Assembly: GCA_947630705.1 (NCBI GenBank)
Contig: CANRIK010000003.1
Coordinates: 105,653-169,652 of the forward strand
Direction of reading: 5' to 3'
DNA from: an uncultured Clostridia bacterium
GTDB taxonomy: Bacteria > Bacillota > Clostridia > Christensenellales > Borkfalkiaceae
DNA: 64,000 nt
Below, one piece after another: positions 26,552-50,677 of the stretch (position 1 is its first letter; the number at the start of each line of letters is the position of its first letter). A model generated the notes under the pieces. The model saw nothing but the letters and a program-made list of their open reading frames with translations. It made no database searches and was not told where the DNA came from. The position numbers and the translations under genes are program-made.

Positions 26552-26599
26552 TTTTACCTCCTATAAGAGTTGCATACGCATGCGCCGAAGCGCCGCGAA

Positions 26600-26722
26600 A
26601 TGAAAATTTCCTGTTGCCGCACGGACAACAGGAAAATAACGGTTACTGTGTTTATTTTCTCTGCCTCCGTGGGATATTGAGCTGAAAGCACCCACCTTCT
26701 ACGGCTTCGGAAATTCAATTTT
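26600..26722 (-). promoter_or_regulatory. L10 (rplJL) autoregulatory leader with attenuator
   Basis: The leader RNA contains CCGAAGCCGUAGAAGGUGGG and the partner CCCACGGAGGC, which fit the conserved L10 leader with its kink-turn-like internal loop. Downstream is a strong stem TTTCCTGTTG/CAACAGGAAA (26607-26635) followed by TTTTC on the minus strand, the expected terminator. In Bacillota L10(L12)4 binding stabilises premature termination. Confidence 0.7.
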
Positions 26723-33774: not shown

Positions 33775-34506
33775 ATGAATAAAATCGTCTTTGCGAGCGC
33801 CAACGGCGAGCCTTGTCCCAAATCGACCGACAAATACTATAAGATAATAGTTGCCGAAGGCAAGTGCGCGCTTCAATATGCGGACGGAAAGATAGAGTTC
33901 GGCATGGGTCAAGTGGCCGTGGTTCCGCCTCTTATCAAGTATTCGCTGTCCGGAGTGTCGCTTGCGGTGTATCTCGAACAGGCTCTGCTATCGTTCGGCA
34001 ACGTCGGCATAATCTCCGACGACGGTGCGCGCGGAATCGAGCACGCGGCGAAACAGGCCATGGAATATCTGCGTGCGGAGAGCTCCGACAAAAGCGTGCT
34101 CGCGGCGCTGGGAGGACTGATAGTGGCATACATAACGGAGTTTTCCGGAGGCGAGAAGCTCTCTCCCGTGGTGGCGGCGGTGCGCAAAGACATTCAAAAA
34201 AACCTTTCCACCCCCTCTTTCTCCCTTGAAGACAGTATCAAACAGCTTCCGCTAAACTACGACTACGTGCGAAAACTTTTCAAAAAAGAGACGGGGGTGA
34301 CCCCTCACGAATATCTGATGAACTCCCGAATGAAGCTCGCAAATGAGCTGATTTCGAGCGGTATCGGAAACAAATACAGCAATTATTCGGTGGGTCAGAT
34401 AGCCGAGGCGTGCGGTTTTTCCGAACCGCTGTACTTTTCGAGAGTTTTTAAAAAATATTTCGGAATATCGCCTTCCGAGGCTTGCAAAAAGGCGAGAAAC
34501 TCATAG
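33775..34506 (+). CDS. AraC-family transcriptional regulator
   Basis: A 243-residue regulator. The N-terminal part (1-130) resembles a small cupin sensor domain (GMGQVAVVPPLIKYSLSG). The C-terminal double helix-turn-helix covers about 145-240, with YVRKLFKKETGVTPHEYL and VGQIAEACGFSEPLYFSRVF, the second ending KKYFGISPSEA. AraC proteins of this size usually sense sugars. It lies 1.2 kb from the pectin island on the opposite strand, so control of that island is plausible but only inferred. Confidence 0.88.
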   Translation: MNKIVFASANGEPCPKSTDKYYKIIVAEGKCALQYADGKIEFGMGQVAVVPPLIKYSLSGVSLAVYLEQALLSFGNVGIISDDGARGIEHAAKQAMEYLRAESSDKSVLAALGGLIVAYITEFSGGEKLSPVVAAVRKDIQKNLSTPSFSLEDSIKQLPLNYDYVRKLFKKETGVTPHEYLMNSRMKLANELISSGIGNKYSNYSVGQIAEACGFSEPLYFSRVFKKYFGISPSEACKKARNS

Positions 34507-34552: not shown

Positions 34553-35479
34553 ATGGCTTATTATCATGTTTTGTTGAACCCCTTTGCCGGACACAACGGC
34601 GTTGAAGAAGTAAAGAAAAATCTGCTTTCTATACTCGACGGAAATAATCTGACATTCACGGACGTCACTGCCTTAAAAGAGGAAAACGACCTGCAAAATC
34701 TCGTCTCGGCATTGGAGCCGGAGACGAAATTGGTCATTGCCGGAGGCGACGGAACTCTGAACAGATTCGTAAACGCCGTGGACTGCGACAATATCGCAAA
34801 CGAAATCTATCTCTTCGCGGCCGGCAGCGGAAACGACTTTTACGCGGATCTGAAAGCGCATGCGGACGAATATTTCCCCGAAAGTGAAAAATCGGCAATA
34901 GGCGAAAACTCGCTTTTGAAGATAAACCAATTTCTTCGGAATCTTCCCCAAGTTACCGTCAACGGCAAAAGCTATAAATTCATAAACGGCATAGGATACG
35001 GCATAGACGGCTACTGCTGCGAAGTGGGCGACAAACTCAAAGCCGCCGGAAAGAAGGTCAACTATACCTCTATCGCAATTAAGGGACTGCTCTTCCATTT
35101 CAAGCCGAGAGCCGCAAAAGTTTGGGTGGACGGCAAGGAGTATGAATTTAAAAAGGTGTGGATAGCTCCCACCATGAACGGCCGCTGCTACGGCGGAGGA
35201 ATGATTCCCACGCCCAACCAGAACAGAGCCGCAAAAGACAAGTTGAGCCTCTGCGTTATGTACGGAAAGGGCAAACTGAAAACGCTCATGGCCTTCCCCA
35301 AGATCTTTACCGGCGAGCACGTCAAAAAGGAAAAAATGGTCAAGATACTCGAAGGCAAGAGCATAACCGTGAAGTTTGCAAAGCCCTGCGCGCTTCAAAT
35401 CGACGGCGAAACAATATTGAACGTTTCGGAATACAGCTGTACGCTCGCCGAAGCCGCCGAAAAAGCGCTCGCGGCATAA
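34553..35479 (+). CDS. Diacylglycerol kinase family lipid kinase (DagK/YegS-like)
   Basis: A 308-residue enzyme with the catalytic GGDGTLNRFVNAV loop near 63-75 and AAGSGNDF at about 97. The C-terminal beta domain ends with IDGETILNV, typical of the family. It phosphorylates lipids such as diacylglycerol at the membrane face. GAGGATAT precedes the ATG. A strong terminator follows. Confidence 0.88.
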   Translation: MAYYHVLLNPFAGHNGVEEVKKNLLSILDGNNLTFTDVTALKEENDLQNLVSALEPETKLVIAGGDGTLNRFVNAVDCDNIANEIYLFAAGSGNDFYADLKAHADEYFPESEKSAIGENSLLKINQFLRNLPQVTVNGKSYKFINGIGYGIDGYCCEVGDKLKAAGKKVNYTSIAIKGLLFHFKPRAAKVWVDGKEYEFKKVWIAPTMNGRCYGGGMIPTPNQNRAAKDKLSLCVMYGKGKLKTLMAFPKIFTGEHVKKEKMVKILEGKSITVKFAKPCALQIDGETILNVSEYSCTLAEAAEKALAA

Positions 35480-35601: not shown

Positions 35602-35637
35602 GCGCGCGGAACCTTTCGGTTCCGCGCGCTTTATTTT
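35602..35637 (+). terminator. Terminator of the lipid kinase transcript
   Basis: A 12-bp perfect stem, GCGCGCGGAACC and its complement around TTTC, followed by TTTATTTT. Confidence 0.88.
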
Positions 35638-35716: not shown

Positions 35717-36850
35717 TCAAAGTTGCTTTACTTCCGTGTACGCCATCACGAACGGGCCGGTGCCCTTTGCGTCGTTTTCGACTACGGGCTCGGATATGTA
35801 ATATTCGAAACTTCCGTCCCTGCGGCGATTGGATTCGGGACCGAGGCCGGCCATAAGGCAGATTCCGCCGAGATTAAGTTTGCCGTCCGTATCCGTAAGA
35901 TATCTGTTGCAGATACCGTCGAATACTTGCTTGCCGACTTTCGCAAACTTTTTATCCACAAATCCGAGGCGCGCGCCCTTCATCATTGCATAAGATATCA
36001 TTGCGCTTCCCGAAGTTTCAAGGTAGTTGCCCTCTCTGCCCATCTGGTCGGGAACCTGATAGAACATGTGACCTACGGGGTCGATATATTGTTCGAGACC
36101 CTCTATGGTGTCCTTGAAAATTTTAACGAGTTCGGCCTTGTATTCCTTTGCGTCGTCGGAAAAATAGCTTATGGCGTCTACGAGTCCCACAGTATACCAA
36201 CCGACGGAGCGGAGCCAGAAGGACTTGGAGAGTCCCGTCTTTTTATCCGCCCAGAACGCCGTTTTGGACCAGTCCCAACCGTGATAATAGAGCTTCTTCT
36301 CTTTATCGTACATATTGTCGTACACGGCTTTGAACTGCTTTACTATGTCGGCATAGTTTTTGCCGCCGTTGACTTCCGTCTCATAACGGGTGTAGAAAAC
36401 CTGCGCCATATAGAGCCCGTCCAGCCATACCTGATTGGGATATATCTGTTTGTGCCAGAAATTGCCGGCGCCCGTACGAGGCTGTTCGACAATCTGTTTG
36501 TGCAAAAGCTCTATTGCTTTATTGTACTTCTCCTTTCCCGTCTCGCGATACAAATCGAAGAGTATCCTGCCCTCGTTGAGATTGTCGAGGTTGTAGGTTT
36601 CAAGCTCGTAGCCGCGAATCGTTCCGTCCTCAAACACATAGTAATCCACGAATTTATCTATAAAATCAAGATATTTTTTCAATCCGGTCTGCTTATAAAT
36701 CGTGTAGAGCGACGTCATCATACAGCCGTCTATGTAGTTCCAAGCCGGTTTTTTGCCCTGCTTTATATTTTCTATGTTCCAAATCGGAGCATCGGGCGTC
36801 GTGTCCTCTATCAGTCTGTCTATGTACCTGTCGATTATCGAATAATCCAT
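35717..36850 (-). CDS. Unsaturated rhamnogalacturonyl / galacturonyl hydrolase, GH105
   Basis: A 377-residue (alpha/alpha)6 barrel enzyme without signal peptide. The two Asp expected for catalysis are at residue 89 (YNLDNLNEGR) and 144 (VWLDGLYMAQ), close to the positions known in YteR. It removes the unsaturated uronate from pectin oligomers by hydrating the double bond, giving 5-keto-4-deoxyuronate, the substrate of KduI encoded at 56357-57235. It is the last gene of the transporter operon, 14 bp after the GH28 gene. Confidence 0.88.
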   Translation of the reverse strand: MDYSIIDRYIDRLIEDTTPDAPIWNIENIKQGKKPAWNYIDGCMMTSLYTIYKQTGLKKYLDFIDKFVDYYVFEDGTIRGYELETYNLDNLNEGRILFDLYRETGKEKYNKAIELLHKQIVEQPRTGAGNFWHKQIYPNQVWLDGLYMAQVFYTRYETEVNGGKNYADIVKQFKAVYDNMYDKEKKLYYHGWDWSKTAFWADKKTGLSKSFWLRSVGWYTVGLVDAISYFSDDAKEYKAELVKIFKDTIEGLEQYIDPVGHMFYQVPDQMGREGNYLETSGSAMISYAMMKGARLGFVDKKFAKVGKQVFDGICNRYLTDTDGKLNLGGICLMAGLGPESNRRRDGSFEYYISEPVVENDAKGTGPFVMAYTEVKQL

Positions 36851-36864
36851 AAATTCACCTCCAT

Positions 36865-38406
36865 TTATTCCTCTGTCACCTTTTTGCAGTTATGCTTTAT
36901 AACCTTTTCGCCCACTACTCCGTCAAAAGTTACATTTTTAAGATACAGATGCTCTACATTGTCAACGTACAGTCCCTCTTTGCAGAAGTCGCGCACGTGT
37001 TCGAGCATAGCGGGCTTTGCCGGCTTTGCATCCGGTTTGAAATGAAAGCTGACGTTCTCTATTATAACCTCTTTTATGGGCTGTTCGACAAGACCGTCGA
37101 AATATCCGGCCATGCATTCGCAGTCAACGCACTCTATATCCTTGAATTTGAACTTGCCGAGATACGGCGTGCCGTCGTCCACGGGAGTCGAAGGATCGCG
37201 CGACCAGACGTACTCCGTATGACCGTCGGGATCGCAGAAATAGTACATGTTTATTACGAGCGGAGTTATGACGTTCTCCATTTTTATGTTTTCGAACAGA
37301 ACGCCGTCTATAATTCCGTCCTTACCTCTGCCGCGGCGCGACTTTATGCGCAGACCTCTGTCCGTATGCTTGAACACGCACTGGCAGACGGAAAGGTTCT
37401 TTACGCCGCCGCTCATTTCACTGCCCAAAACTATGGCGCCGTGTCCGTCTTGGAAGAGATTGTTGCGCAATGTATGGTGATTTGCGGGCGTTTTGAAAGT
37501 TCTGCCCATATGGAGCTTACCGCTCTTTATGGCGCAGCAGTCGTCGCCCACGCTGAATACGCAGCCGATTATATCCACATTGTCGCAGCTTTCGGGGTCG
37601 AGCCCGTCAGTGTTGGGCGCGGTGCTGGGATTCTGAATACGCAAATCGTAAAATTTGAGATTCTGCGAAAAGAAGGGATGAAGATTCCACGAGGCGGAAT
37701 TCTTGCAGGTTACGCCGTGAAAGACAACGTTACTGCACTTATTTAAAAATACAAGTCTCGGACGCGCCACTTTTCTGCCCTTGGGCGTCGTCCACCAAGT
37801 GGAATGGTCGGCGTTGCCGTTTATGGCGCCCTCTCCGACTATCCTGATATTCTTCTGTTTATACGCCGAAACGAAGGACTGATGGCAGTCGTGAAGCTCG
37901 CCCTCCCAGCTCGCAAGAAGCTGTTCCTTGCCGTCCACGAAAGTCCTCGCCGGAACGTAGGGGTAGTTTGTCTCGGTGACGTCCCCCAAAAGCTCCGCAC
38001 CCTTCTTGATTTCGACGGTGATATCGCTCCTCAAAACGATAGGACGGACGAGGAAACTGCCGCCTTCGAGCACGACTCTGCCGCCAACGGGACATTTATC
38101 TATCGCCATCTGCACGTAATACGTATCGTCGGTTACGCCGTCGGCCTTTGCCCCGAGAGATTTTACGTCTATTACTTCGGTATCCTTCGAAGTTTTGAAT
38201 TTAACGGAGCCTCTTTGGGAAGTTATGGTCACCGTGTATTCGGTATCTGGAGTGAGATTAAAGAGCGAAAACACGTTGGTGTCGCGTTCGCCGCCAACCA
38301 CTTCGCCGTTGAGAAATACTTTATATTTTTTAGGGCTGTAATAGGGATTGGTATTTTTCAGTTCGAAGCACGCAGACGTACTTGAAACGAACAGTTTTTT
38401 AAACAT
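36865..38406 (-). CDS. Polygalacturonase, GH28, cytoplasmic
   Basis: A 513-residue enzyme that hydrolyses alpha-1,4-galacturonide bonds. Residues 15-75 look like a fibronectin III-like domain, followed by the parallel beta-helix. Catalytic motifs are NTDG (265-268), GDDC (287-290), DGHG (320-323) and RIK (353-355). No signal peptide is present (it starts MFKKLFVSSTSACF but lacks a hydrophobic core), so it should act on imported oligomers, probably as an exo-enzyme. It overlaps the membrane protein gene upstream by 8 bp. Confidence 0.9.
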   Translation of the reverse strand: MFKKLFVSSTSACFELKNTNPYYSPKKYKVFLNGEVVGGERDTNVFSLFNLTPDTEYTVTITSQRGSVKFKTSKDTEVIDVKSLGAKADGVTDDTYYVQMAIDKCPVGGRVVLEGGSFLVRPIVLRSDITVEIKKGAELLGDVTETNYPYVPARTFVDGKEQLLASWEGELHDCHQSFVSAYKQKNIRIVGEGAINGNADHSTWWTTPKGRKVARPRLVFLNKCSNVVFHGVTCKNSASWNLHPFFSQNLKFYDLRIQNPSTAPNTDGLDPESCDNVDIIGCVFSVGDDCCAIKSGKLHMGRTFKTPANHHTLRNNLFQDGHGAIVLGSEMSGGVKNLSVCQCVFKHTDRGLRIKSRRGRGKDGIIDGVLFENIKMENVITPLVINMYYFCDPDGHTEYVWSRDPSTPVDDGTPYLGKFKFKDIECVDCECMAGYFDGLVEQPIKEVIIENVSFHFKPDAKPAKPAMLEHVRDFCKEGLYVDNVEHLYLKNVTFDGVVGEKVIKHNCKKVTEE

Positions 38407-39088
38407 TTAACGCTTTCTCCTTTTTCTTGTTCTTCAAGTGACGGACAAGCGCTACAACGCCGTCCTTTATGCCTATAAATACCATATCGATCGCTACCGT
38501 GATAACGCCGAACAAAAGAGGTTCGACGCCCGAAATCACCTTCGCCATTACAAGATACGTATAAGATACGGCTATCAGATAGCCGATTATTATGTAATAG
38601 AATATGTTGGCAAAGAAAGTCCAGAAACTCTTGAAAGGGAACGGAAACATCATGTACGCGTTATACTCCTTTCTATCCGATTCCATAAATCTGAACAGCG
38701 GATTTACGAGGATATCCACCACCATGCCCATAACCGCGCCCGTGAGAACGGCCTGATCGAGGTAGCCGGAGTTCGGCATGATTCCCATCATGATGAAGTA
38801 GCATACGGCGCCGGAAAACCAGAACTTGACAAATATTGCCTTTATCCATGTGGGGACTCTGCCCAAAAAATCGGTCTTGTACGGGTCGAATTCCTTATCC
38901 TTGCCGTTGCGCTTCACGTTGGCGGGATCGTATATCCCCATATTCGCGTTCATGGCATAATTGACGTCCTCTTCGAGTGTGGTAGTCTCTCCTTTGAGCA
39001 CGGCCACCAGCTCGTCAACTTTGTCCACTTTCAAATCGTAATAATTTTCGATTGTAGTTTCAGGTGATTTATTCTTCTTTTTTGACAT
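38399..39088 (-). CDS. Uncharacterised tetraspan membrane protein E of the pectin ABC operon
   Basis: A 229-residue protein: a charged N-terminal cytosolic region (1-80), then four likely spans (about 86-104, 111-130, 153-180 and 187-207) and a lysine-rich end. The ATG at 39088 follows AAAGGAAACAG; an upstream start would add 18 residues. I recognise no domain. Its place between the ABC ATPase and GH28 genes, with an 8-bp overlap to GH28, suggests a part in oligogalacturonide uptake or transporter assembly. Confidence 0.75.
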   Translation of the reverse strand: MSKKKNKSPETTIENYYDLKVDKVDELVAVLKGETTTLEEDVNYAMNANMGIYDPANVKRNGKDKEFDPYKTDFLGRVPTWIKAIFVKFWFSGAVCYFIMMGIMPNSGYLDQAVLTGAVMGMVVDILVNPLFRFMESDRKEYNAYMMFPFPFKSFWTFFANIFYYIIIGYLIAVSYTYLVMAKVISGVEPLLFGVITVAIDMVFIGIKDGVVALVRHLKNKKKEKALNV

Positions 39089-39162
39089 CTGTTTCCTTTT
39101 TGAAAAATAACCGACAAAGAGTATTTGCCGGTTATCGTTCACTTAAATTTTAATTCTGATAA

Positions 39163-39768
39163 TCAGTCTTCCTGAATATCGATGCCACCAGACATATTTT
39201 CGGTTGCGGATTCGAGTTTGATAGAAGTATCGATCTTCTTTATCAACCTGCTGTAAACGGGAAGGAGCGCAAATACTACCGCGGCAATCGCAAGGAGAAT
39301 TATATGCGCCAGAACATAGGGTTGAGCGGCTATGGCCTCCACTTTGTTCTGATGGTCGATAAGATAGAAGTGCATAGGCACATAATAACCTATATCGCAA
39401 CCTATTATAGCGAAAATCATTGCAAACGTCAAAACAATGAACACTATATTGGGCTTTTTACGCTTGGGGAACGAGTTCAAAAAGCATACGAGCACAAGTA
39501 TCGAAAGCAACGTGGAAATAAATGAACATATTCCAGTCGCCGGAAGCTGCGGCTCTTCTGCGGTTACGCCCATCGCCTGTCCGATTACAAACATTATAAA
39601 CATGTAATAAACGGAAGCTATTGCGAGGAACAGCAAAGCGATATTCTGCGGATGACGCTTTAAATTGACTATCTTCTTGCGGAGCCACTCTTTTGCCCTT
39701 GCACCGAACGAAGGCTTGGAGGACTCGGGGACGTCTGTATTTTCAATGTGAACGTTTTCTTCTGCCAT
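39163..39768 (-). CDS. Uncharacterised tetraspan membrane protein D of the pectin ABC operon
   Basis: A 201-residue protein with four likely spans (about 42-66, 79-97, 105-128 and 149-170). The N-terminus is acidic then basic (AKEWLRKKIVNLKRH) and the C-terminal tail is acidic. No known domain is recognised. It lies 13 bp after the ATPase gene. Shape and place match its neighbours D and E, but sequence identity between them is not obvious by eye. Confidence 0.75.
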   Translation of the reverse strand: MAEENVHIENTDVPESSKPSFGARAKEWLRKKIVNLKRHPQNIALLFLAIASVYYMFIMFVIGQAMGVTAEEPQLPATGICSFISTLLSILVLVCFLNSFPKRKKPNIVFIVLTFAMIFAIIGCDIGYYVPMHFYLIDHQNKVEAIAAQPYVLAHIILLAIAAVVFALLPVYSRLIKKIDTSIKLESATENMSGGIDIQED

Positions 39769-39781
39769 TGCGGTTTCCTCC

Positions 39782-40876
39782 TTATATTATAGCCTTACCG
39801 GGCAGTTCATTGCCCTTTTCATCTTTTTGAGGCAACTCGAAGAAGTGCATCATGTCGGGGTCGAAACCTATCTGAATGGTATCGCCCACCCTGTAATTGC
39901 ACCACTCGGCAAACTTGCAGACGATCAATTTCTTGCCGCCCACCTTGCCGTGAACAAGCGTGTTCATTCCGAGGTTTTCGTTGTTGGTTATATCCAGCTC
40001 TATTTTCCCGTCGCGAGTGATATTTTCGGGACGTACGCCCAAAATCACGCCCTCGCCCTCATGGGAAGAAAGCTCCTTCTGCTGTGCGGCCGTAAGAGGA
40101 TAATCAAACAGGTCGCACTTGAAGTGTCCGCCCTCGATCTTGCCCTCGAACATGTTCATGGGAGGAAGTCCTATGAACGTTGCAACAAAGGTGTTCGCGG
40201 GTTTTTCATAGAGCTCTATGGGTTTGCCTATCTGCTGAACGTGACCCATGGACATGCACACGATTCTGTCGGCAAGCGTCAAAGCCTCGGTCTGGTCGTG
40301 GGTTACGTACATTATTGTGGCGTTGAGCTTCTTGTGGAGAAGTATAAGTTCGCGTCTCATCGAACCGCGCAGTTTCGCGTCGAGGTTGGAAAGAGGCTCG
40401 TCGAACAGGAACACTTTGGGGTTACGGACTATCGCACGTCCCATTGCAACACGCTGGCGCTGTCCGCCGGAGAGCTGACGGGGCTTTTTGTTGAGCTGAG
40501 TCTTCAAGTCGAGGATCTCCGCCGCCGCCATAACCTTTCTGTGAATGATTTCCTTATTCTCCTTGCGGAGAGTTAAGGAGAACGCCATGTTCTCGTAAAT
40601 CGTCATGTGTCCGTACAGAGCATAGTTCTGGAAAACCATTGCTATATCTCTGTCTTTGGGGGGCAACTGCGTACAATCTTTACCGTCGATTATAAGCGTG
40701 CCGGCCGAAATATCTTCAAGTCCGGCAACCATTCTCAAAGTGGTCGATTTGCCGCAACCGGAAGGTCCTACGAGGACTATGAATTCGCCGTCGGCAATGT
40801 CAAGGTTGAAATCGTATACAGCCTGCACGCCGCCGTCATAAATTTTGTCCAAATGTTGAATGTTTACTTCGGGCAT
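39782..40876 (-). CDS. MsmX/UgpC-type sugar ABC transporter ATPase, copy 1
   Basis: A 364-residue ATPase. Walker A GPSGCGKST is near 37-45, signature LSGGQRQRVAMGRAI near 135, Walker B KVFLFDEPLSNLD and the switch His in VTHDQTEA. The C-terminal regulatory OB-like domain (about 240-364) marks the CUT1 sugar importer class. It would power the permeases encoded upstream. It overlaps the preceding membrane protein gene by one base. Confidence 0.93.
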   Translation of the reverse strand: MPEVNIQHLDKIYDGGVQAVYDFNLDIADGEFIVLVGPSGCGKSTTLRMVAGLEDISAGTLIIDGKDCTQLPPKDRDIAMVFQNYALYGHMTIYENMAFSLTLRKENKEIIHRKVMAAAEILDLKTQLNKKPRQLSGGQRQRVAMGRAIVRNPKVFLFDEPLSNLDAKLRGSMRRELILLHKKLNATIMYVTHDQTEALTLADRIVCMSMGHVQQIGKPIELYEKPANTFVATFIGLPPMNMFEGKIEGGHFKCDLFDYPLTAAQQKELSSHEGEGVILGVRPENITRDGKIELDITNNENLGMNTLVHGKVGGKKLIVCKFAEWCNYRVGDTIQIGFDPDMMHFFELPQKDEKGNELPGKAII

Positions 40877-41478
40877 TATTGCACCTCCTCACTCGCTTGT
40901 TCGGCAACTTCGGGAGTTGCGTCCGCCACGGCGTTTTCGGCTTCGGCAGCCTTTGCCGCAGCCTCGTCGGCATCAACTTGTCTTATAACTTCCATAATGT
41001 CGATTTCGCCGGCCTCGACCTTCTTGTTGAATTCGGCAACCGCCTTGCTGCGGATATAACCGATTACGGCGGAGGCGATTTCAAGACCGCCGGAAGCCGC
41101 AAGCGAAATTGCCAAAATAAGGAACCTGCCTATATCGATTGCCGCGGGCTTTGCAAGAAGTCCGCCGAGAGGCAACCAGAAGATTCTTCCTATCTGGAAC
41201 GCGCCCAGAATAAGTTGAAGAATTACGAGCTTGCTGTCATAGCCTTTGACCTGTTCGGAAAGAAGGAAGGTCAGAAGCAGGAACATGAGGTTGAAAATAA
41301 CGTCGAACGCTATTGCCCACGTGGAATAATAGTCAGTGCCTACAACCGCGTACAGGAACATGAAGCAAAGGCAATCGCATGCGATTGCGCCGAGCGCAAG
41401 ATTTGCGGCCAGCTTGTTCTTCTTGTAACGCATTACGTCGGTGCTGATTACGGGATTGGAAACAGTATTGTTTTTCAT
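40876..41478 (-). CDS. Uncharacterised tetraspan membrane protein C of the pectin ABC operon
   Basis: A 200-residue protein with four likely spans (about 24-47, 53-73, 81-105 and 115-138) and a long C-terminal tail rich in A, E and D (150-200). No family is recognised. It overlaps membrane protein B by 4 bp (ATGA) and the ATPase gene by one base, so the three are translationally coupled, a strong hint of a shared complex. Confidence 0.75.
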   Translation of the reverse strand: MKNNTVSNPVISTDVMRYKKNKLAANLALGAIACDCLCFMFLYAVVGTDYYSTWAIAFDVIFNLMFLLLTFLLSEQVKGYDSKLVILQLILGAFQIGRIFWLPLGGLLAKPAAIDIGRFLILAISLAASGGLEIASAVIGYIRSKAVAEFNKKVEAGEIDIMEVIRQVDADEAAAKAAEAENAVADATPEVAEQASEEVQ

Positions 41479-42176
41479 ACCGCACCTCCTTCGAGAGCGC
41501 TGCCTTCAAGCAACTTCTTTTCGCCCTTCATAAGCAGAACCTTCCAAATAAGGTTCAATATGAGGACTATTGCGGCGACGATAACCAACGCGTAGACCAC
41601 ATACCCCAAAATGAACCAAAGCTGCGAACCGAGGTCGGGCTGCAAAACAGTAGTTGCCGGAGTATCTTTGGGCACATCGAAGGCAAAGTGAATTTTGCTT
41701 TGAGCGCCTATACCACGATATGTCTCGTAAGCGTCGCAGAAATACCAAGCGTTGAAATCCACGTTGAGGAATTTTGCATGCCACGACGCGTTCATTACCA
41801 AAAGTATTAATGATATTACAATGTCGCCTACGGCGCAGACGCCGGTAGCAACATAATTGCTGACGTAGTAATTTCTTCTCTTATTGCAACTTGTGATATA
41901 CAGGAGCACGGCGAGCAATATCATCACTATGCCCATAATCATAAGAAGATTGTTAAAGGCCTGTACGTCGTAATACAAGTCTACGCCATACTTTCCCTCC
42001 GCCGGCGTAAAGAGCGGCGTCTGTACAGAGCCCTCTTCGGTCGAGGTTATCTGCACGGCCTGGCCGAGCTCGGAAAGAGAGCCCGAGCAATAGCAAAACG
42101 CATATACCAGAGCCAATGCGCCGACGAGCAGCATTGCAAGGCATATGTATTTTTGGAATCTCATCTGAGTTTTCAT
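41475..42176 (-). CDS. Uncharacterised tetraspan membrane protein B of the pectin ABC operon
   Basis: A 233-residue protein with spans at about 10-30, 73-95, 107-130 and 183-215. Two sizeable outer loops lie between spans 1 and 2 and between 3 and 4 (the latter with WHAKFLNVDFNAWYFCDAYE); these could contact the binding lipoprotein. No known domain is recognised. The Shine-Dalgarno GGGGGAT lies inside a possible hairpin (see 42185-42228). Confidence 0.75.
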   Translation of the reverse strand: MKTQMRFQKYICLAMLLVGALALVYAFCYCSGSLSELGQAVQITSTEEGSVQTPLFTPAEGKYGVDLYYDVQAFNNLLMIMGIVMILLAVLLYITSCNKRRNYYVSNYVATGVCAVGDIVISLILLVMNASWHAKFLNVDFNAWYFCDAYETYRGIGAQSKIHFAFDVPKDTPATTVLQPDLGSQLWFILGYVVYALVIVAAIVLILNLIWKVLLMKGEKKLLEGSALEGGAV

Positions 42177-42184
42177 ATTTTATC

Positions 42185-42228
42185 CCCCGAAAGGTTTTTC
42201 GGGGCGCCCGCGCTCACGCGAGCGCCCC
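42185..42228 (-). other. Overlapping stem-loops between binding-protein gene and membrane protein B
   Basis: Stem 1: GGGGCGC/GCGCCCC (42201-42228) with an inner CGCG stem. Stem 2: CCCCGAAA/TTTCGGGG (42185-42204). They share the same four bases and cannot form together. Stem 2 buries the Shine-Dalgarno of membrane protein B. No T-run follows, so this is likely an mRNA-stabilising or translational element, not a terminator. Confidence 0.55.
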
Positions 42229-42273
42229 TCAAATAACTTATATAGTTGATTTACCTTTTTCTGCCGTATGGCA

Positions 42274-44805
42274 TCAGAACGTGTACTGCTGATTCTGCTC
42301 GTTGTAAGTTCCGGTCATGCCATTGAGAATGATGTAGTTCATTATGCTCCAGAAGTTCTTGGATTCGCCCGACTTATATCCGGTAAGGCATCTCAACCAA
42401 GTCTGGTCTGTTGCGTCAAGAACGTCTCTCTGTATGTTGGAAGTAATGGGAAGTCCGGTGGGAACGCAGGTGAACCAGTAGTTGTTCTCGTCGATTGCAA
42501 GGCTGGGGCCCTTTACGGTGCCGAGCGCAAGCGCTGCGCCGACCTTGTTCGCGCCTTCTTTACCCATCTGTGCGGTGAGCTGGTTCTCGAAGGACTGATC
42601 CTTTACGCCTACGGGAAGGGTGGAACCGATAAGTTCACGCGCATAGTTTGTGAATGATCTTGCATCGGAACCTACAAAGTTATCGGAGCCGTCCTTACCT
42701 GAGAAATGGGAGTACAGAGCCGTAGTTATGGTAGGAGTTGCCTTGCCCTTGTAGATTGTGCCCTTATAGTACTTGCCCTTGTACTGGAAGCTGTCGGCTG
42801 CGCCCTTTGTGCCCGTCTCATTGTACCAGAATCCGCCAGCGCCGTTAGCATTGGTAGCCATGGGGCCGAAGGTGGAAACTATCTGGCCGTCTTCGGAGTA
42901 CAGGTAGTCTACAAATTGAAGAGCAGCCTTCAATTTTGCTTCGTTGCCGCTTTCGGCAAGAGCGCCGTTGAGCGCAAGACCGCCGGTCTTGGTGGAACGC
43001 CAGCTCTCGGTGAATCTGAATATTTCGCCGTCTTCGCCGTAAGTGCCGTTACCGTTTACATCCCACTTTGCAATGGGGGTCATGACGGGGCCGAACTTGT
43101 AGCCGTCGGGACGGGTAACGCCCGATACGCCGTTTTCTATTGCGATGGCGCCGGCCGTCTGAGTCTGCGAATAATCGTAGAGCATCATGGACTGGGTGGT
43201 GCCGTTTATGCCCTCTGCCGCCTTGAATGCGTCATAGCCTTCGTAGTTGGCGACGAGGTTCTCGGCTCTGAAATTGTGAAGGAGAGCCATTGCTTCCCAA
43301 TAATGAGCGTCGTTACGTGCGTCTTGAAGGGTGCCGTTGCTGTCGATATAGGTCTGCTCGAATCTGGAAGTTGCGCCGCGAGCGCCGAAGAGCTGTCCGG
43401 CAAGGGATACAACGTCGGGAGTTCTGTCGTTTGTGCCGTCACGGGCAGCTATACCTTGAAGGGTCTGGCCTTCTGCAACGAGTATGGAGGAGTTGGTCAT
43501 TGCGCAGCGGAGCAGAGCGCAGAGGTCGTCTGCGTCCCAGCAAGCGTCGTAACCGTTGAAGAGGTTTGCGCGCTTATCTGTCGCATAGTATGCGCTGCCA
43601 TCTTCCTTCTGATAGCATACGTCGATATATGCGCGGAAGAGATCGAGAAGCTGTGCGCCTGTTGCCTCGTTATTCTTCTTCAAAGCATAGTTCATAAGGT
43701 CGACTATGTTGCCGCTCTCTTCGTTGTAGGTTTCTCCGGCTATTGCCTTGTAAGCCGTGCCGAGAGCGCTGGATTCGTTCTTAACTGCGTCGAGTACGGC
43801 GTTATAGTTCTTTACGATGTTGATCTTTGCGGAGCCGTCTTCGTTGAGGCTTTCAACGGTGAGCTTACCGGCGGTAGCCATGTACGCGCCGACGCTGGGG
43901 GTCTCTGCGCAGACATCCTTAAAGGTTGCCGTGCTGGTGGAAGCGGTGCTGCCGTTCAGAAGTTTTGCAACGAGATCCTGACGAAGCAGGCAGTATCTTT
44001 CGATATCGTTGTAACCGTCGAAGTAGGGAGCAACGTAGAGAACTTTGCCCGAGCCGTTCGATGTATCCATACCGCTTTGAAGAAGGGACAGATATACGAT
44101 GGGGTTCTCGTTGAGGAACTTATTGAAGTTGGGCATATAGTCCAGATAGCTCGCAAGGTTCAGTATGCTGGTGCCGGCCGCGGCCTGAGATACGGCTACG
44201 GAGAGGTCGGTAGTGAACATATCGGTATTGGCATATGTTTTATCGGTGATCATTTGCGTAAGGTTGCTGCTGGACTGATACTTTTTATCATGACCCCAAA
44301 CGTCGTTCCATGTAATGTTGAGGTCTTGGCCCATCTGCTTCCATGCGGGTTTAGCGTCGTTGGTGGTGTACTGTACTCCGTCGGGAAGGGTGATGGTTTT
44401 AGCCGCCTTGAAGTGAGTACCGGTCGCTGCGTTGTTGTGACCGATAGCTATGTTGAGGGTTACGGGGTTTGTTCTCGCATAAGCGTCATAGTTAAGCGTG
44501 CCGTCCGCGTTGAGGACGTGATACTCGTCCTTGATTTCGGAAGTAGCGTCTTTAAGATAAGCCCAGTAGTTCTTCGCGGTGGTCCAACCGGTGTTGAACG
44601 CATTCTCTCTGACCTGAGACAGTCCTTCTTCCTTGGCACCGAGATCGCTAAGCAGCTTGGTTATCTTGGCGGTATCGATGGCGGCGCCGGTGTTCTCGCC
44701 CATTTGAAGAGCGTCTCCCGCACCGCAGGCTGCAAACGAAACTGCCATTGTGCCTGCCATAACCGTGGAAACCGCGGCAATGGCGAGTTTTTTGTACTTG
44801 TTCAT
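42274..44805 (-). CDS. Oversized extracellular solute-binding lipoprotein of the pectin ABC transporter
   Basis: An 843-residue lipoprotein. The signal peptide ends in SFAAC (about residue 27). The mature part has the two-lobed binding-protein style of the LplA/YtcQ group (aromatic and Asn/Asp-rich, Trp pairs such as TFTESWRSTK regions), but is about 300 residues longer than usual. It would capture oligogalacturonides outside the membrane. It lies between the permease genes and membrane protein B, flanked by stem-loops on both sides, which could raise its message level relative to neighbours. Confidence 0.85.
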   Translation of the reverse strand: MNKYKKLAIAAVSTVMAGTMAVSFAACGAGDALQMGENTGAAIDTAKITKLLSDLGAKEEGLSQVRENAFNTGWTTAKNYWAYLKDATSEIKDEYHVLNADGTLNYDAYARTNPVTLNIAIGHNNAATGTHFKAAKTITLPDGVQYTTNDAKPAWKQMGQDLNITWNDVWGHDKKYQSSSNLTQMITDKTYANTDMFTTDLSVAVSQAAAGTSILNLASYLDYMPNFNKFLNENPIVYLSLLQSGMDTSNGSGKVLYVAPYFDGYNDIERYCLLRQDLVAKLLNGSTASTSTATFKDVCAETPSVGAYMATAGKLTVESLNEDGSAKINIVKNYNAVLDAVKNESSALGTAYKAIAGETYNEESGNIVDLMNYALKKNNEATGAQLLDLFRAYIDVCYQKEDGSAYYATDKRANLFNGYDACWDADDLCALLRCAMTNSSILVAEGQTLQGIAARDGTNDRTPDVVSLAGQLFGARGATSRFEQTYIDSNGTLQDARNDAHYWEAMALLHNFRAENLVANYEGYDAFKAAEGINGTTQSMMLYDYSQTQTAGAIAIENGVSGVTRPDGYKFGPVMTPIAKWDVNGNGTYGEDGEIFRFTESWRSTKTGGLALNGALAESGNEAKLKAALQFVDYLYSEDGQIVSTFGPMATNANGAGGFWYNETGTKGAADSFQYKGKYYKGTIYKGKATPTITTALYSHFSGKDGSDNFVGSDARSFTNYARELIGSTLPVGVKDQSFENQLTAQMGKEGANKVGAALALGTVKGPSLAIDENNYWFTCVPTGLPITSNIQRDVLDATDQTWLRCLTGYKSGESKNFWSIMNYIILNGMTGTYNEQNQQYTF

Positions 44806-44841
44806 ATTTTTCTCCTTATAAAAATTTTCGCTTTTATTTTC

Positions 44842-44858
44842 AGCGGCGCAAGCGCCGT
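44842..44858 (-). other. Stem-loop between permease and binding-protein genes
   Basis: CGGCGC/GCGCCG hairpin without T-run in the 103-bp gap. It may be a processing or stability element that sets binding-protein stoichiometry. Confidence 0.4.
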
Positions 44859-44908
44859 CCGAGACATTTGGTTATTTTACAAAAATTATATTATTACAAT
44901 ACAGAGGA

Positions 44909-45829
44909 TTACTCCTTCACGCCGCCCATATTTACGCCCTTTGCAAAGTACTTCTGAATGAAGGGGTAAATTGCAAGGATGGGGATAATGGCGCAAATAA
45001 CCATGGAGTATACAACGGATACGGCGGAGTAGTCGGGATGGGTTGCCGCATAGGCCGCAACGTCGTCGCCCGAGGCCTTGCCGGATATGTTGGTGTAGGT
45101 ATCGATGAAGTCACGGATATACACCTGAACGGGCCACGAGAACGACTGCGTTCTCATTACCTTGTACGCCCAGAAGTAGCCGTTCCAACGGGAAATTCCG
45201 AAGAACAGAGCGACTGTTGCGATGGTGGCCTTGCTCATGGGGATATATACCTTGGTGAGAATCTGCAACTCCGTTGCGCCGTCTATTCTCGCCGCTTCCT
45301 CTATTTCGGAGGGAACGCCCTCGAAAGAGTTACGGAGAAGGATTATGTTGGTGGCGTTCATACCCATGGCGAGCACAACAGTCCATTTGAGGTCCACTAT
45401 GCCGAGATTTGCAAAAACTTCGGTAGTCGTCAGGTAGTTCTGATACTGGGGAACTATGCCGGCGGAGAACCACATTGTGAATACGAGGAAGAAGTTGAAG
45501 CCCTTTCTGCCGAGCAGTCTCTTTTTGGAGAGAGCATAGGCGCCGAGTATGGAATAGCCGAGCGCCCAGATAGTGCCGAGGAAGGTCAAGAACAGGGTAT
45601 TCGCATAGTTGGTCCAGAACATATTGTTGGTTATAACCGCAAGGAAGGCATCACCCTGAGGCTCTATGGGAACTATTACTACGCTGCCCTTATCTATTGC
45701 GCTGACCGAGCTGAACGAAGCCGACAGCGCGTACAACAGAGGATAAACGCAGAGAAGCGCAAAAACGATAAGAACGAAATAAGCTACGATCCGGAATATA
45801 AGTTCGGATTTTTCTGTTTTTCTTTTCAT
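44909..45829 (-). CDS. Sugar ABC transporter permease, LplC/YtcP-like
   Basis: A 306-residue inner-membrane protein with six predicted spans. The EAA loop that docks the ATPase reads EEAARIDGATELQILTKVYIP. The N-terminal ALLCVYPLLYALSASFS and final PFIQKYFAKGVNMGGVKE are typical of the LplC/YtcP permease group. It pairs with the permease 18 bp upstream. Confidence 0.92.
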   Translation of the reverse strand: MKRKTEKSELIFRIVAYFVLIVFALLCVYPLLYALSASFSSVSAIDKGSVVIVPIEPQGDAFLAVITNNMFWTNYANTLFLTFLGTIWALGYSILGAYALSKKRLLGRKGFNFFLVFTMWFSAGIVPQYQNYLTTTEVFANLGIVDLKWTVVLAMGMNATNIILLRNSFEGVPSEIEEAARIDGATELQILTKVYIPMSKATIATVALFFGISRWNGYFWAYKVMRTQSFSWPVQVYIRDFIDTYTNISGKASGDDVAAYAATHPDYSAVSVVYSMVICAIIPILAIYPFIQKYFAKGVNMGGVKE

Positions 45830-45847
45830 GGCTTGACTTTATCCTCC

Positions 45848-46927
45848 TTAATACAGCGATACGTTGGATGCCTTCTTTGCAACGGCGTTCGCGCCGAGCA
45901 CGAGGATCATACCGATCAGGTTATTGAGCATTTCTGCGGCAGTACCGAGCGCACGGCCGTCGGAGGCTCTCGTTTCAGACCACTGGTTGGAGAGAGTGGA
46001 GATAACCTGCGCAACGTCGTAGTTGCTGGTGCTGTTTGTACCGTTGCCCAACAGGAGGTAAATCTTTTCGTAGCCTACGGAAAGAAGTCCGCCTATCTTC
46101 ATTATGAGCATTATTACAACCGTCGAGAGGATTGAAGGGATAACGACGTATCTCATCTGCGCCATCTTTCCGGCGCCGTCTATCTGCGCCGCCTCGTACG
46201 AGGTGGGCGAAACGGCTATTACCGCGGCGAAGAATACTATCGAGTCGTAGCCGGCATGCTCCCACAAGTCGGTTATTATGTATATGGCCCTGTAATATTG
46301 AGTCGTGAACACAAGGCCGCTGCTTACGAGGTTTTTATCCGCACCGAAAGCCTTGAATACGGAAGCCACAACGCCTTCGCCCTGCAAACCGCCGGCCGTG
46401 CCGCGGAAGAGAATGAGCGTAAGCGATGTTACTATAACCGTCGAAAGGAACTTGGGAAGGTATACGCACACTTGAAGCACCGAACGAACGAGGTTGGAAC
46501 GAACTTCGTTAAAGAAGAGAGCCAGAATTATAGGCATCGGGAAACCGAACAACAGGCCGTAGAACGCCGTTATGAACGTGTTTCTGAAAGCAAGCCAGAA
46601 ATCGGGGCTCAAATCGCTGTCGGTGAACAAAACTTGGAAGTAACGCAAGCCCGCCCACGAGAAAGTGTTGACATGCAAAGTATCACCGGTCGAGGGGTCT
46701 TTGAAGCAGGCGGTCAGCTCATACATGGGCATGTACTTCCAAAGGAAATACACCAAAATCATGGGTATGAGCATGGCGTAAAGGCGCCAGTCCTTCAAGA
46801 CTGTAAAACCGGTGGACTTCCAGCTGTTCTTCTCGGCTTCGTCCCTTACCTTCTGGTCGGCCGCCATCGAATAGGTGCCGGTCAACTCATCATAGACAAG
46901 GAAGTCGTCGCATTTGAGTTTGAACAT
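45848..46927 (-). CDS. Sugar ABC transporter permease, LplB-like
   Basis: A 359-residue permease. It carries a cytosolic N-terminal extension of about 50 residues before the first span (WRLYAMLIPMILVYFLWKY). The EAA loop reads YEAAQIDGAGKMAQMRYVVIP. The LplB/YteP subgroup imports complex plant oligosaccharides such as rhamnogalacturonan fragments, in line with the pectinase genes downstream. The extension is longer than typical. Confidence 0.92.
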   Translation of the reverse strand: MFKLKCDDFLVYDELTGTYSMAADQKVRDEAEKNSWKSTGFTVLKDWRLYAMLIPMILVYFLWKYMPMYELTACFKDPSTGDTLHVNTFSWAGLRYFQVLFTDSDLSPDFWLAFRNTFITAFYGLLFGFPMPIILALFFNEVRSNLVRSVLQVCVYLPKFLSTVIVTSLTLILFRGTAGGLQGEGVVASVFKAFGADKNLVSSGLVFTTQYYRAIYIITDLWEHAGYDSIVFFAAVIAVSPTSYEAAQIDGAGKMAQMRYVVIPSILSTVVIMLIMKIGGLLSVGYEKIYLLLGNGTNSTSNYDVAQVISTLSNQWSETRASDGRALGTAAEMLNNLIGMILVLGANAVAKKASNVSLY

Positions 46928-47016
46928 TGAAATTTTTCCTCCATATCACATAGTGTCTTGTAATATACAAAAAGCATGCGCTTTTTTGCCGTAAGGTTGT
47001 TTTTCGTTTATTAATT

Positions 47017-47074
47017 ATAATGTATTGCGTTTAACGTATTCTTTTAATGCATTATTTCGTTAAATTAATGTATT
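47017..47074. repeat. Four direct repeats upstream of the LplB-like permease
   Basis: Copies of TTAAYGYATT (one reads ATAATGTATT) start at 47017, 47031, 47044 and 47065, in the 196-bp gap between the hexaspan membrane protein and the permease genes. They look like regulator binding sites for an internal promoter. No convincing -35 box was found near the TATAAT that overlaps the first copy on the minus strand. The rest of 46928-47123 is A/T-rich. Confidence 0.5.
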
Positions 47075-47123
47075 ATTGGATTAAAAGTTTCGGCGAGGCG
47101 ACGTCGCGGCGGCTTGCGCCCGT

Positions 47124-48038
47124 TTATTCCGTTTTGACGTCGATTTCCTCGGGGACGGCATCGTTTTGCACCGAATCGCTTTGTCCGACATTGTTTTGAG
47201 CGATATCTGCCGCGTGGGGTTCGGTATCGGCCTTTACCGCCGCGTTTTCGGACTCTTCGGAGATTTTATCGGCCGGCTTTGCCCTTTTTTCGGACTTGCG
47301 AGCCCTTTTGTCGGGCGTTTTGGGATTTTTATCGGCCGATATCGAGGCGGAAGGAACGGGTTTGTCGAACAAACTGCCGTAATCCGCGCGGAAGTACTTC
47401 AACTCGTCCTCGTTGAGTTCGGTGTAGCCCTCCCACTTGTCCTCGTCGGCCGGATGGCCCTTCTTCTCTTCTTCGAGGCGGAGAAGGTATTGCTTCTGGT
47501 CCTCCAACATTCCGTCAACTTTCCTCGCGACGAGGAGAACCATGGCCGCGAAGGCGCCGCTCAACAGATCCCAGAGGTTTTCGCGGAGCGTATCCACAAA
47601 ACCGAAACCGAAACATGCCGCTACCGTGCTTCTGCCCAAAAACACGAGCGCGGTTGCCGCAAGCGGATAAATCAGCGTGAGATACCATGTGGAAAAGAGC
47701 TTGTTTTTGGGAATTGCTTTGAATATAAACCAAGATAAAAGCAGAAATGCGTTGCCGACGGCATAAATGACATACATTTGCACCGTTGCACCGTAAAACA
47801 CACAATACAGAATCCCGTCGAGCACGGGGAAGATCGCACCGAACCAGTTCCAGCGAACCAACACGATCAGGGAAATCGCGTACATCAGCGAGATCGTAAA
47901 CGTCATATCGGGAAACCAATAGTTGAACGCCATGTAATTGACGGATTCAAGCAAAACCATAATCAACAGAAAGAGAAATAAATCCCAGAATTTATATTGA
48001 TTATAGGTTAATCTTCCGAATATGTTTCTATTGCTCAT
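47124..48038 (-). CDS. Uncharacterised hexaspan membrane protein A, first gene of the pectin ABC operon
   Basis: A 304-residue protein with about six spans (17-39, 45-62, 66-83, 86-105, 117-136 and 153-172). A short coiled coil follows (EDQKQYLLRLEEEKKG), then a 100-residue disordered tail rich in K, P, A, D and S. The compact six-span core recalls ECF transporter S components in layout only; no motif proves it. As the promoter-proximal gene of the transporter operon it is a candidate accessory subunit or sensor. Confidence 0.75.
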   Translation of the reverse strand: MSNRNIFGRLTYNQYKFWDLFLFLLIMVLLESVNYMAFNYWFPDMTFTISLMYAISLIVLVRWNWFGAIFPVLDGILYCVFYGATVQMYVIYAVGNAFLLLSWFIFKAIPKNKLFSTWYLTLIYPLAATALVFLGRSTVAACFGFGFVDTLRENLWDLLSGAFAAMVLLVARKVDGMLEDQKQYLLRLEEEKKGHPADEDKWEGYTELNEDELKYFRADYGSLFDKPVPSASISADKNPKTPDKRARKSEKRAKPADKISEESENAAVKADTEPHAADIAQNNVGQSDSVQNDAVPEEIDVKTE

Positions 48039-48102: not shown

Positions 48103-48131
48103 ATTATAACATAGGCTTTTTTAAAAATCAA
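48103..48131 (-). promoter_or_regulatory. Promoter of the 11-gene pectin transporter operon
   Basis: TTGATT (48126-48131), 17-base spacer, TATAAT (48103-48108). An 8-bp tandem repeat TTACATTT-TTACATTT on the plus strand (about 48078-48093) covers the predicted start region and may be an operator. Confidence 0.7.
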
Positions 48132-48197: not shown

Positions 48198-49142
48198 ATG
48201 ATTGAACTGCATCTCACCCCAAACGACGATTTGTCGGATATATTGAATAATCTGAATCAACCTGCCACCATATATTTGAAGAGCGGAATTTACAGGCAGA
48301 AGGTCGAGATAGAGAGGAACGATTTGACCGTTGTGGGCGAAAATCGTGAAACAACTGTTATAACTTATGACGATTACGCGCGTAAAATTCATGCCGACGG
48401 ACGGGAATACAATACTTTCAGAACCTATACTCTCTGCGTTACGGGGGAGAGGGTGAAACTTGAAAATCTGACCGTGGAGAACTCAAACTCCGACCCTCGC
48501 TCCGTGGGGCAATGCGTGGCGCTTTCGGTGAACGCGAAGGCGTTTTCGGCGGTCAACGTCGATTTGAAATCCACGCAGGACACGCTCTTTTCCGCGCCTT
48601 TCCCCGACGACCTCGTGAACAGATACCGCGGTTTTATCCCCGAAAACCAGCTGTATATGGAGGGCGGCTCTGCGCAACTCTATGAAAATTGCGGAATTTA
48701 CGGCACTGTGGACTTTATTTTCGGCTGCGGCGAGGCGTATTTTCACAAGTGCCGGCTCGTGTCCCTTCACGACGAACGGGGATACGGATTTGTGACCGCT
48801 CCGGCACATTCTCTCAAACAGGAGCGAGGTTTCGTGTTCATCGACTGCGATTTCATAGCCGACGGAGCCGAAGATGGTTCCGTCTATCTCGCGAGGCCTT
48901 GGAGAGATTTCGGGAAGTGCGAATTCATAGACTGTCGGCTGGGAGCGCACGTGAACGGAGCGCTCTATGACAAGTGGAACGACACCAACCGCGACAAGAC
49001 TGCGAGGTTTTCTCACCGCGGACTCGTTTCCGCCTCTCCGCTCTCTCCCGTCAAATGGAGCAAAGAGCTATCTGATGAAAAAACAAATGAAATTATAAAT
49101 ATGTTTGCCGCACGATTTAAGGGTATAAATCGTGAAAATTGA
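48198..49142 (+). CDS. Pectin methylesterase, CE8, cytoplasmic
   Basis: A 314-residue parallel beta-helix enzyme that removes methyl groups from galacturonate units. Catalytic Asp128 (QDTLFS) and Asp172 (GTVDFIFG), and the Arg233-Trp235 pair (LARPWRDF), are in place. No signal peptide is present: it starts MIELHLTPNDDL. Therefore it should act on imported methylated oligomers. AAGGAG precedes the ATG by eight bases. Confidence 0.9.
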   Translation: MIELHLTPNDDLSDILNNLNQPATIYLKSGIYRQKVEIERNDLTVVGENRETTVITYDDYARKIHADGREYNTFRTYTLCVTGERVKLENLTVENSNSDPRSVGQCVALSVNAKAFSAVNVDLKSTQDTLFSAPFPDDLVNRYRGFIPENQLYMEGGSAQLYENCGIYGTVDFIFGCGEAYFHKCRLVSLHDERGYGFVTAPAHSLKQERGFVFIDCDFIADGAEDGSVYLARPWRDFGKCEFIDCRLGAHVNGALYDKWNDTNRDKTARFSHRGLVSASPLSPVKWSKELSDEKTNEIINMFAARFKGINREN

Positions 49143-49264: not shown

Positions 49265-50677
49265 TCAGAAACCGAAGTATTCCGCGGCGTTGTTGTAGCA
49301 GACGTCCTCCACTATCTTGCCGAGTCTGGGAAGTTCCTCAACGGGGTATTGTCCGCTTTCGACAAGTCTGCCGAGCATCTGGCAGAGGAGACGTCTGTAA
49401 TACTCGTGACGGGGATATGCGAGGAAAGAGCGGCTGTCCGTAAGCATGCCTACCGACTGCGCCACGAGGCCTACCTGCATAAGCGTTTCGAGATTCTGAC
49501 GCATGCCGTCCTGCTGATCGAGGAACCACCACGCCGTGCCGACCTGCACTCTGCCCTTTACCCCCTCTTTCTGGAAGCATCCGGCGAGCACCGTAAGCGC
49601 GTAGTTGTCGCGAGGGTTGAGGCAGTACAGAATGGTCTTGGGAAGATTGCCGTCCTTGTCGATTTCGCCGAGAAGCGCGGAAAGTTTCTCCATGTAAACG
49701 GCGTCCTCTATCGCGTCGAAGCCCGTGTCGGGGCCTATCTTTTCAAGCATGCTCTTGGAATTGTTGCGAAGAGCGCCTATATGATACTGCTGTACCCAGC
49801 CGTATTTGGCATATTCCTTTGCAAGCTCTATAAGAACGTAGCCCTTGTATTTATCTTGCTCTTCCGGAGATATGCTTTCGCCGTTCATGCCCTTCTTGAA
49901 GATTTTGTCGGCTTCCTCGTATGTGGAGGGAGCATAGCAAACCACGTCGAGGGCGTGGTCGGAGAGCTTGGAGCCCATGGAATCGAAGAACTTTATTCTC
50001 TCCGCAAGGGCGTCGAGCATGTCGCGGAGGTTATTTATGGGCTTGCCCACCACTCCGGCAAGCTGATCTACCCAGCTGCGGAACCATGAAAGTTCGACGT
50101 TTATTGCCTTGTCGGGACGGAAAGCCGGACGGACGCGAACTTTGAGAGTCTTGTCGGCGTTCATCTTTTTGTGCCATTCGAGACTGTCAACGGGGTCGTC
50201 GGTAGTGCAAACCGTCTTGACGTTGAATTTATACATCATCTCGCGCGCGGTGAGCTTTTCGAGAACCTTATTGGCTTTCTCCCATATCTTGGGGGCGTTC
50301 TCCTTATTTATTATGTCGTCTATGCCGAAATATCTTCTCATTTCGAGATGCGACCAGTGATAGAGGGGATTGCCCACGAAATAGGGCATGCTCTCGGCAA
50401 ACTGCATGAATTTTTTGTAGTCGTCGTCGGGGCCCGAGATGGAGTCCTCCTCATAGCCGCGCGCACGGAGAGCGCGCCACTTGTAGTGGTCGCCGTATCT
50501 GTCGCCGGCGCCCAACCAGACTTCGGCGAGGTTTCTGAATTTCTTATCCTCGTAAATCTCCTTGGGTTGAAGGTGGCAGTGATAGTCGATTATGGGCATT
50601 TTTTCGGCGTGCTCGTGATAGAGCTTTTTGGCCGTTTCGGTGTCCAGAAGAAAATCCTTGTCCATGAATGCTTTCAT
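49265..50677 (-). CDS. uxaC: Glucuronate/galacturonate isomerase
   Basis: A 470-residue TIM-barrel metalloenzyme that converts D-galacturonate to D-tagaturonate (and glucuronate to fructuronate). Typical landmarks are PIIDYHCHLQPKEIYEDK at the N-terminus and YNNAAEYFGF at the C-terminus. It is the last gene of the uronate operon; its ATG overlaps the uxaA stop (TAATG). Confidence 0.95.
   Translation of the reverse strand: MKAFMDKDFLLDTETAKKLYHEHAEKMPIIDYHCHLQPKEIYEDKKFRNLAEVWLGAGDRYGDHYKWRALRARGYEEDSISGPDDDYKKFMQFAESMPYFVGNPLYHWSHLEMRRYFGIDDIINKENAPKIWEKANKVLEKLTAREMMYKFNVKTVCTTDDPVDSLEWHKKMNADKTLKVRVRPAFRPDKAINVELSWFRSWVDQLAGVVGKPINNLRDMLDALAERIKFFDSMGSKLSDHALDVVCYAPSTYEEADKIFKKGMNGESISPEEQDKYKGYVLIELAKEYAKYGWVQQYHIGALRNNSKSMLEKIGPDTGFDAIEDAVYMEKLSALLGEIDKDGNLPKTILYCLNPRDNYALTVLAGCFQKEGVKGRVQVGTAWWFLDQQDGMRQNLETLMQVGLVAQSVGMLTDSRSFLAYPRHEYYRRLLCQMLGRLVESGQYPVEELPRLGKIVEDVCYNNAAEYFGF

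Follow-up and report, generated by a model that had tools for sequence, protein, structure and literature searches.

Within a 64,000-nucleotide stretch of DNA from an uncultured Clostridia bacterium (GenBank assembly GCA_947630705.1, contig CANRIK010000003.1, positions 105,653 to 169,652; the window in what follows), an operon encodes an ATP-binding cassette (ABC) importer together with five membrane proteins, named here A to E. We propose that the five are extra subunits built into this importer, among which B, C and D are predicted to hold a dedicated ATPase under the permease pair, and we place about as much confidence as doubt in this proposal. The original prediction, made from the DNA letters, had offered a membrane-embedded accessory complex, a substrate channel or a sensor as possible roles; the accessory complex is the best reading of the three. 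We infer that A to E assemble physically with the importer.

All genes of the cluster were found as open reading frames (ORFs) on the minus strand, and the original prediction was exact as to their coordinates and overlaps. The block at 35717-48038 is transcribed in the order A-LplB-LplC-solute-binding lipoprotein-B-C-ATPase-D-E-GH28-GH105; the stop codon of B and the start codon of C share ATGA, those of C and the ATPase share TAATG, and E overlaps the GH28 gene over 8 bases. The permeases and the ATPase fit the CUT1 definition: BPD_transp_1 (PF00528) scored above its cut-off in both permeases, and the ATPase reached 461.8 bits against NF008653 (cut-off 432), with OB_MalK and TOBE_2 also above cut-off, as in the MalK/UgpC class. 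Since GH28, GH88/105, pectinesterase and Uxa genes are its neighbours, the importer is predicted to take up oligogalacturonides or pectin fragments. Permease-domain matches numbered 12 in the whole genome. At the N-terminus of the LplB-like permease (46790-46927), about 45 residues ahead of the first span showed high conservation within the genus (column means per ten residues of 0.95, 0.80, 0.78 and 0.72), which makes this segment a possible docking element.

In order to follow the cluster in related genomes, a single-sequence query with C was used, which matched 28 of the 37 genomes of the genus, counting that of the window, and none of 24 genomes from other families of the order. Up to 20 kb was read around each of the 27 other same-genus matches, and the full order from A to GH105 was identical in these 27 loci wherever the contig extends; the absences of A (L035, L042, L048) and of E (L048) all fell at contig ends. 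The pectinesterase was present in 23 of the 27, and in L036 GH28 and GH105 formed one long ORF. C was unmatched in nine of the 37 genomes, some of them nearly complete (G003, G011, G018, G022, G025, G029, G033, G034 and G036), and the genus may therefore include members without the system.

Of 297 genomes in the order, 18 matched a profile of E built from the genus only: eight from the genus itself, the window genome among them, and ten spread over four other families. In all ten out-of-genus loci, genus-only profiles placed C on the upstream side of E, and the ATPase and D occupy the interval. A wider C profile matched the same 18 genomes and no further one; it includes sequences from the ten out-of-genus genomes, so that this co-occurrence of C and E does not come from two independent profiles. 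In a class sample, five of 391 genomes matched the E profile: the window genome, one of the same genus, G633 from another family (locus L167, which has no GH105), G585 from a further family (L165, cut by the contig end) and G468. The last of these was rejected, the match falling within the N-terminal region of a MalF-like permease; a phylum sample (398 genomes) returned only the window genome and this false match. As a different case, G468 carries an importer-like cluster (L168, G468:C6:74601-94600) with a 242-residue five-span protein among permease-like genes.

Beyond the family of the genus, the gene order was thus found, with small losses, in four families of the same order and in two further families of the class, one of them cut by its contig. 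Across many genomes the proteins recur at 17 to 90 percent identity to those of the window, and this recurrence of A to E in the same order is far more than chance would give. The module is rare, and most of its occurrences fall in a single order of Clostridia, a few lying outside it. Named relatives of E included Candidatus Coproplasma and uncultured Clostridia whose names suggest rabbit, chicken and ruminant samples, the hosts being judged from titles. None of the window proteins A to E matched a Pfam or NCBIfam family above cut-off, as had been anticipated, and the survey of neighbourhoods found them kept beside LplB/LplC in related genomes; the original prediction therefore holds on both points.

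The coupling of B, C and D to the ATPase gene is tight. B and C overlapped in 31 of 41 loci, C and the ATPase in 27 of 42, and the gap between the ATPase and D was 60 bases or less in 41 of 43; the median gaps were -4, -1 and 11 bases, against 96 bases for the lipoprotein gene. The ATPase itself is, by its sequence, distinct from the second ATPase of the same class. In a tree, 41 operon ATPases split from eight second ATPases (that at 55158-56255 of the window and those inside the stretches read at seven other loci) with branch support of 100/99, and many positions were diagnostic between the groups; Gly89, which lies in the segment that follows the Q-loop, was found in 38 of the 41 operon ATPases against proline in all eight second ones. 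In MalK this segment lies near the permease interface. The tree is in substance unrooted, and the ATPase of the distant locus L161 (see below) fell between the groups on a long branch. The second ATPase of the window adjoins a transporter gene that appears MATE-like by eye.

Tight coupling would also suit co-translational assembly, and A to E might be assembly or quality-control factors for the lipoprotein and the permeases that stay outside the working importer. The lipoprotein is indeed unusually long, about 680 to 965 residues in the loci read; importer binding lipoproteins are typically about 450-550 residues. However, five separate factors for a single importer would be unusual, and B, C and D show closer coupling with the ATPase gene than with that of the lipoprotein, so we regard this explanation as unlikely. 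The lipobox Cys27 was invariant in 28 sequences. The window lipoprotein had no Pfam match and the 28 members only stray ones; a profile match to the solved solute-binding protein 5gub (E 7e-4) covered one stretch only. The ligand of 5gub is a glycosaminoglycan.

A variant locus helps to separate B to E from the pectin enzymes. L161 (G115:C17:1-20000) keeps LplB-LplC-solute-binding protein-B-C-ATPase-D-E and lacks A; its proteins are 17 (C), 19 (B), 20 (E) and 21 (D) percent identical to those of the window. Genus profiles gave 26 bits for C, 32 bits for E and a weak 17 bits for B, and D was called by its place and span count, as a four-span ORF unmatched by the genus profile. When 15 sequences of the L161-type E were made into a profile, it matched six of 297 genomes, which were G115 and five with a pectin-type E at known places, and this supports the kinship of the two types. 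In the database, 43 proteins matched L161 E. The neighbours of the block are a DUF4962 protein, a heparinase II/III-like protein, a short-chain dehydrogenase and, upstream, an IclR regulator. Because the block stands beside heparinase-like genes without A, B to E seem to belong with the transporter rather than with the pectin enzymes, and they would be able to serve another acidic polysaccharide.

The same locus bears on the idea that A to E form a substrate channel by which cytoplasmic GH28 and GH105-type enzymes are tethered where substrate leaves the importer. In its favour, E and GH28 lie at most 60 bases apart in 34 of 39 loci, and the GH28 and GH105-type ORFs of distant loci lack a hydrophobic span, bar one GH105-type call in L158. 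Nevertheless, L156 and L161 have B to E without an adjoining GH28 or GH105, L157 has no GH28, and in L160 the GH28 gene is placed upstream of A, which leaves the channel very unlikely.

Protein A could be related to a known fold. Its predicted structure, with five long helices of which one has 31 residues, matched the six-helix S-component fold of the energy-coupling factor (ECF) vitamin transporters, so that A, although it matches no sequence family, does have a known fold by prediction. As for the hexaspan topology claimed for A, simple hydropathy gave five spans in the window and four to seven in 24 relatives, and six spans are our reading of the model, since the 31-residue helix can be taken as two and the S-component match points the same way. 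The window tail of about 80 residues (47124-47365) was modelled with low confidence and has no counterpart in relatives. Neither PF12822 nor any other S-component sequence family was among the four families listed for 25 A members (E up to 0.1), A did not match the MreD family PF04093, and single low Pfam matches among A members were scattered.

With such a fold, A might be a substrate-specific S-component for a pectin-related nutrient that uses the shared ECF module of the cell, B to E serving another purpose; one copy of EcfT is indeed encoded in the genome, away from the locus. An AxxxA motif docks S-components on EcfT (excerpt of PMC11109136). In A this motif is not conserved: AxxxA anywhere in helix 1 was found in only six of 25 members, and window A lacks it. 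The A profile, built with window A and members from five of the ten matched genomes, those outside the genus, matched 10 of 238 genomes in the order, each of which is one of the 18 that bear the cluster. The most conserved residues of A outside the spans are cytoplasmic (12) and not external (0). On these grounds we consider an ECF role for A quite unlikely.

Since the S-component fold is also that of the sensor domain of 5TMR histidine kinases (excerpt of PMC11109136), A to E might instead be a sensing unit in which A reads importer activity or ligand and signals, perhaps, to the AraC-type regulator that is encoded nearby in many relatives. Pfam and NCBIfam scans of A to E, however, found no kinase, GGDEF or other output domain, and L161 has B to E without A and with its own upstream IclR regulator. 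Sensing is therefore improbable in our view, and built-in importer subunits remain the preferred reading.

For B to E, spans were counted by simple hydropathy across relatives. Four spans were found for B in 23 of 27 relatives, for C in 22 of 27 and for D in 25 of 27, and window B and D also counted four; E ranged from three to six, with four in 14 of 26 relatives and four long helices in its model. The description of B to E as tetraspan proteins is thus borne out for most relatives of B, C and D and by the model of E, whereas window C and E each counted five, two of which overlap. The cytoplasmic loops of B, C and D are basic and the external loops variable, and within the genus no other of the five is as well conserved as E. 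A fold search with the E model gave no clear match to a solved protein, and PDB sequence searches with A, B and E gave nothing useful. As for stray, scattered Pfam matches, CD20-like PF04103 appeared on three of 23 B members (best E 6e-6; window B reached 14.5 bits, the cut-off being 27.9), DUF4293 on three of 23 C members (best E 2e-4), DUF6057 on five of 23 D members (best E 0.007) and MFS_1 on D (best E 9e-4), and E members had single low matches that were scattered. One source labels a 322-residue E relative (P0039) a DUF1097 protein; DUF1097 was not listed for window E or 24 members of the E alignment. By hhalign, C and D aligned over their first spans (probability 44, P 2.4e-4) and may be distant paralogues, and no relationship was found between B and C or B and D.

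Conservation on the cytoplasmic side was considered as proof of an interface. With spans placed by hand from hydropathy and models, the columns of A to E that lie outside the spans and reach at least 90 percent conservation numbered 83 of 370 on the cytoplasmic and 3 of 140 on the external side. A control with the permeases of these loci gave the same pattern, so that this conservation says little about an interface, and the argument was dropped.

Table 1. Genes and sites of the pectin-use locus, with positions in the window.
Feature	Position	Strand	Remarks
A	47124-48038	-	S-component-fold membrane protein (about residues 11-185), then a conserved juxtamembrane helix and a tail of about 80 residues
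LplB-like permease	45848-46927	-	PF00528
LplC-like permease	44909-45829	-	PF00528
Putative solute-binding lipoprotein, 843 residues	42274-44805	-	Cys27; distant profile match to 5gub
B, tetraspan	41475-42176	-	RRNYYxxNY cytoplasmic loop, WKxxLMKGEKxLL tail
C, tetraspan, possible distant paralogue of D	40876-41478	-	
Operon ATPase, CUT1-class (UgpC/MalK-like)	39782-40876	-	Gly89
D, tetraspan	39163-39768	-	KEWxRK basic N-terminus, FPKRKKP loop
E, tetraspan	38399-39088	-	No fold recognised; mean column identity 51 percent within the genus
GH28 polygalacturonase-like	36865-38406	-	
Glyco_hydro_88 (PF07470) protein	35717-36850	-	Read as GH105-type unsaturated galacturonyl hydrolase; the GH105 label is ours
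CE8-type pectinesterase (PF01095)	48198-49142	+	Divergent from A
UxaC (PF02614), UxaA-like altronate dehydratase and UxaB-like mannitol-dehydrogenase-type genes	49265-53593	-	Galacturonate catabolism; the UxaA and UxaB labels are ours
AraC-family regulator	33775-34506	+	Past the far end of the cluster; near the cluster in many relatives too
Sigma-70-like site	48103-48131	-	TTGATT, 17 nucleotides, TATAAT preceded by TG; 5' of A; putative operon promoter, consensus match only

Around the operon, a 12-pair GC-rich stem-loop with a T tail on the plus strand (35602-35629), a possible terminator, sits between the operon end and a convergent gene (34553-35479). The sole Rfam match at the gathering threshold within the window was a Ribosomal protein L10 leader (26593-26722).

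If A to E are importer subunits, B, C, D and probably E would dock on LplB and LplC, laterally as well as at the cytoplasmic face, and hold the ATPase in place, and this private ATPase would stand in for MsmX, the shared ATPase of the B. subtilis pectin importers. A would dock laterally, in the manner of an S-component, and stabilise or gate the permease pair in the pectin versions. The long lipoprotein would hand oligomers over for import, after which cytoplasmic CE8, GH28 and GH105-type enzymes would cut them and the Uxa enzymes would catabolise the products. It is possible, though somewhat less than evenly so, that this amounts to a new ABC importer architecture of gut Clostridia for fragments of acidic polysaccharides, in which a type I importer carries a permanent sheath of four tetraspan proteins locking a private ATPase, and an ECF-derived subunit with the S-component fold. 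Were this true, a very common class of transporters would gain five membrane components, and the S-component fold, which also occurs in sensor kinases and MreD, would have a use outside ECF transporters. Bacteria with 1.6-Mb genomes would be shown to run a sugar importer with its own ATPase, and a pectin-uptake system would be marked in uncultured Clostridia of the animal gut.

In the open-licence literature searched, we found neither A to E nor such an accessory set described, and no account of a sugar importer with a subunit of the S-component fold. A resembles in its predicted fold the S-component fold proteins (ThiT, PanT, RibU, FolT and BioY, as well as MreD and the 5TMR kinases); unlike ECF S-components, it has neither a sequence-family match nor a conserved AxxxA and is encoded with a type I importer. 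Other proteins of unknown role occur in rhamnogalacturonan and pectin importer loci: YesL, YesV and YteU are DUF624 membrane proteins. The yes locus of B. subtilis has a DUF624 gene immediately downstream of yesU (excerpt of PMC6120924), so the statement that Yes-type pectin importers have no such partners had to be corrected. A to E are nevertheless not DUF624 proteins: PF04854 was not listed for A to E of the window (E up to 1) or for members of the wide alignments, which for D refers to the best 25 of 40 families, and the genome had no DUF624 match, whereas the B. subtilis positive control did match.

Type I importers are described as two nucleotide-binding domains, two transmembrane domains and one solute-binding protein (excerpt of PMC7658222). 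The operon shares with LplABC, YtcQP-YteP and YesOPQ (with MsmX) of B. subtilis two PF00528 permeases, an ATPase of the UgpC/MalK class, a putative binding lipoprotein and a setting in a pectin-use locus. According to an excerpt of PMC5730181, YtcQP-YteP takes part in the uptake of polygalacturonan and rhamnogalacturonan, and the pectin importers of B. subtilis share the ATPase MsmX. In contrast to these CUT1 importers, the system of the window has a longer lipoprotein without a Pfam match, carries the ATPase gene inside its operon and comprises five conserved extra membrane proteins.

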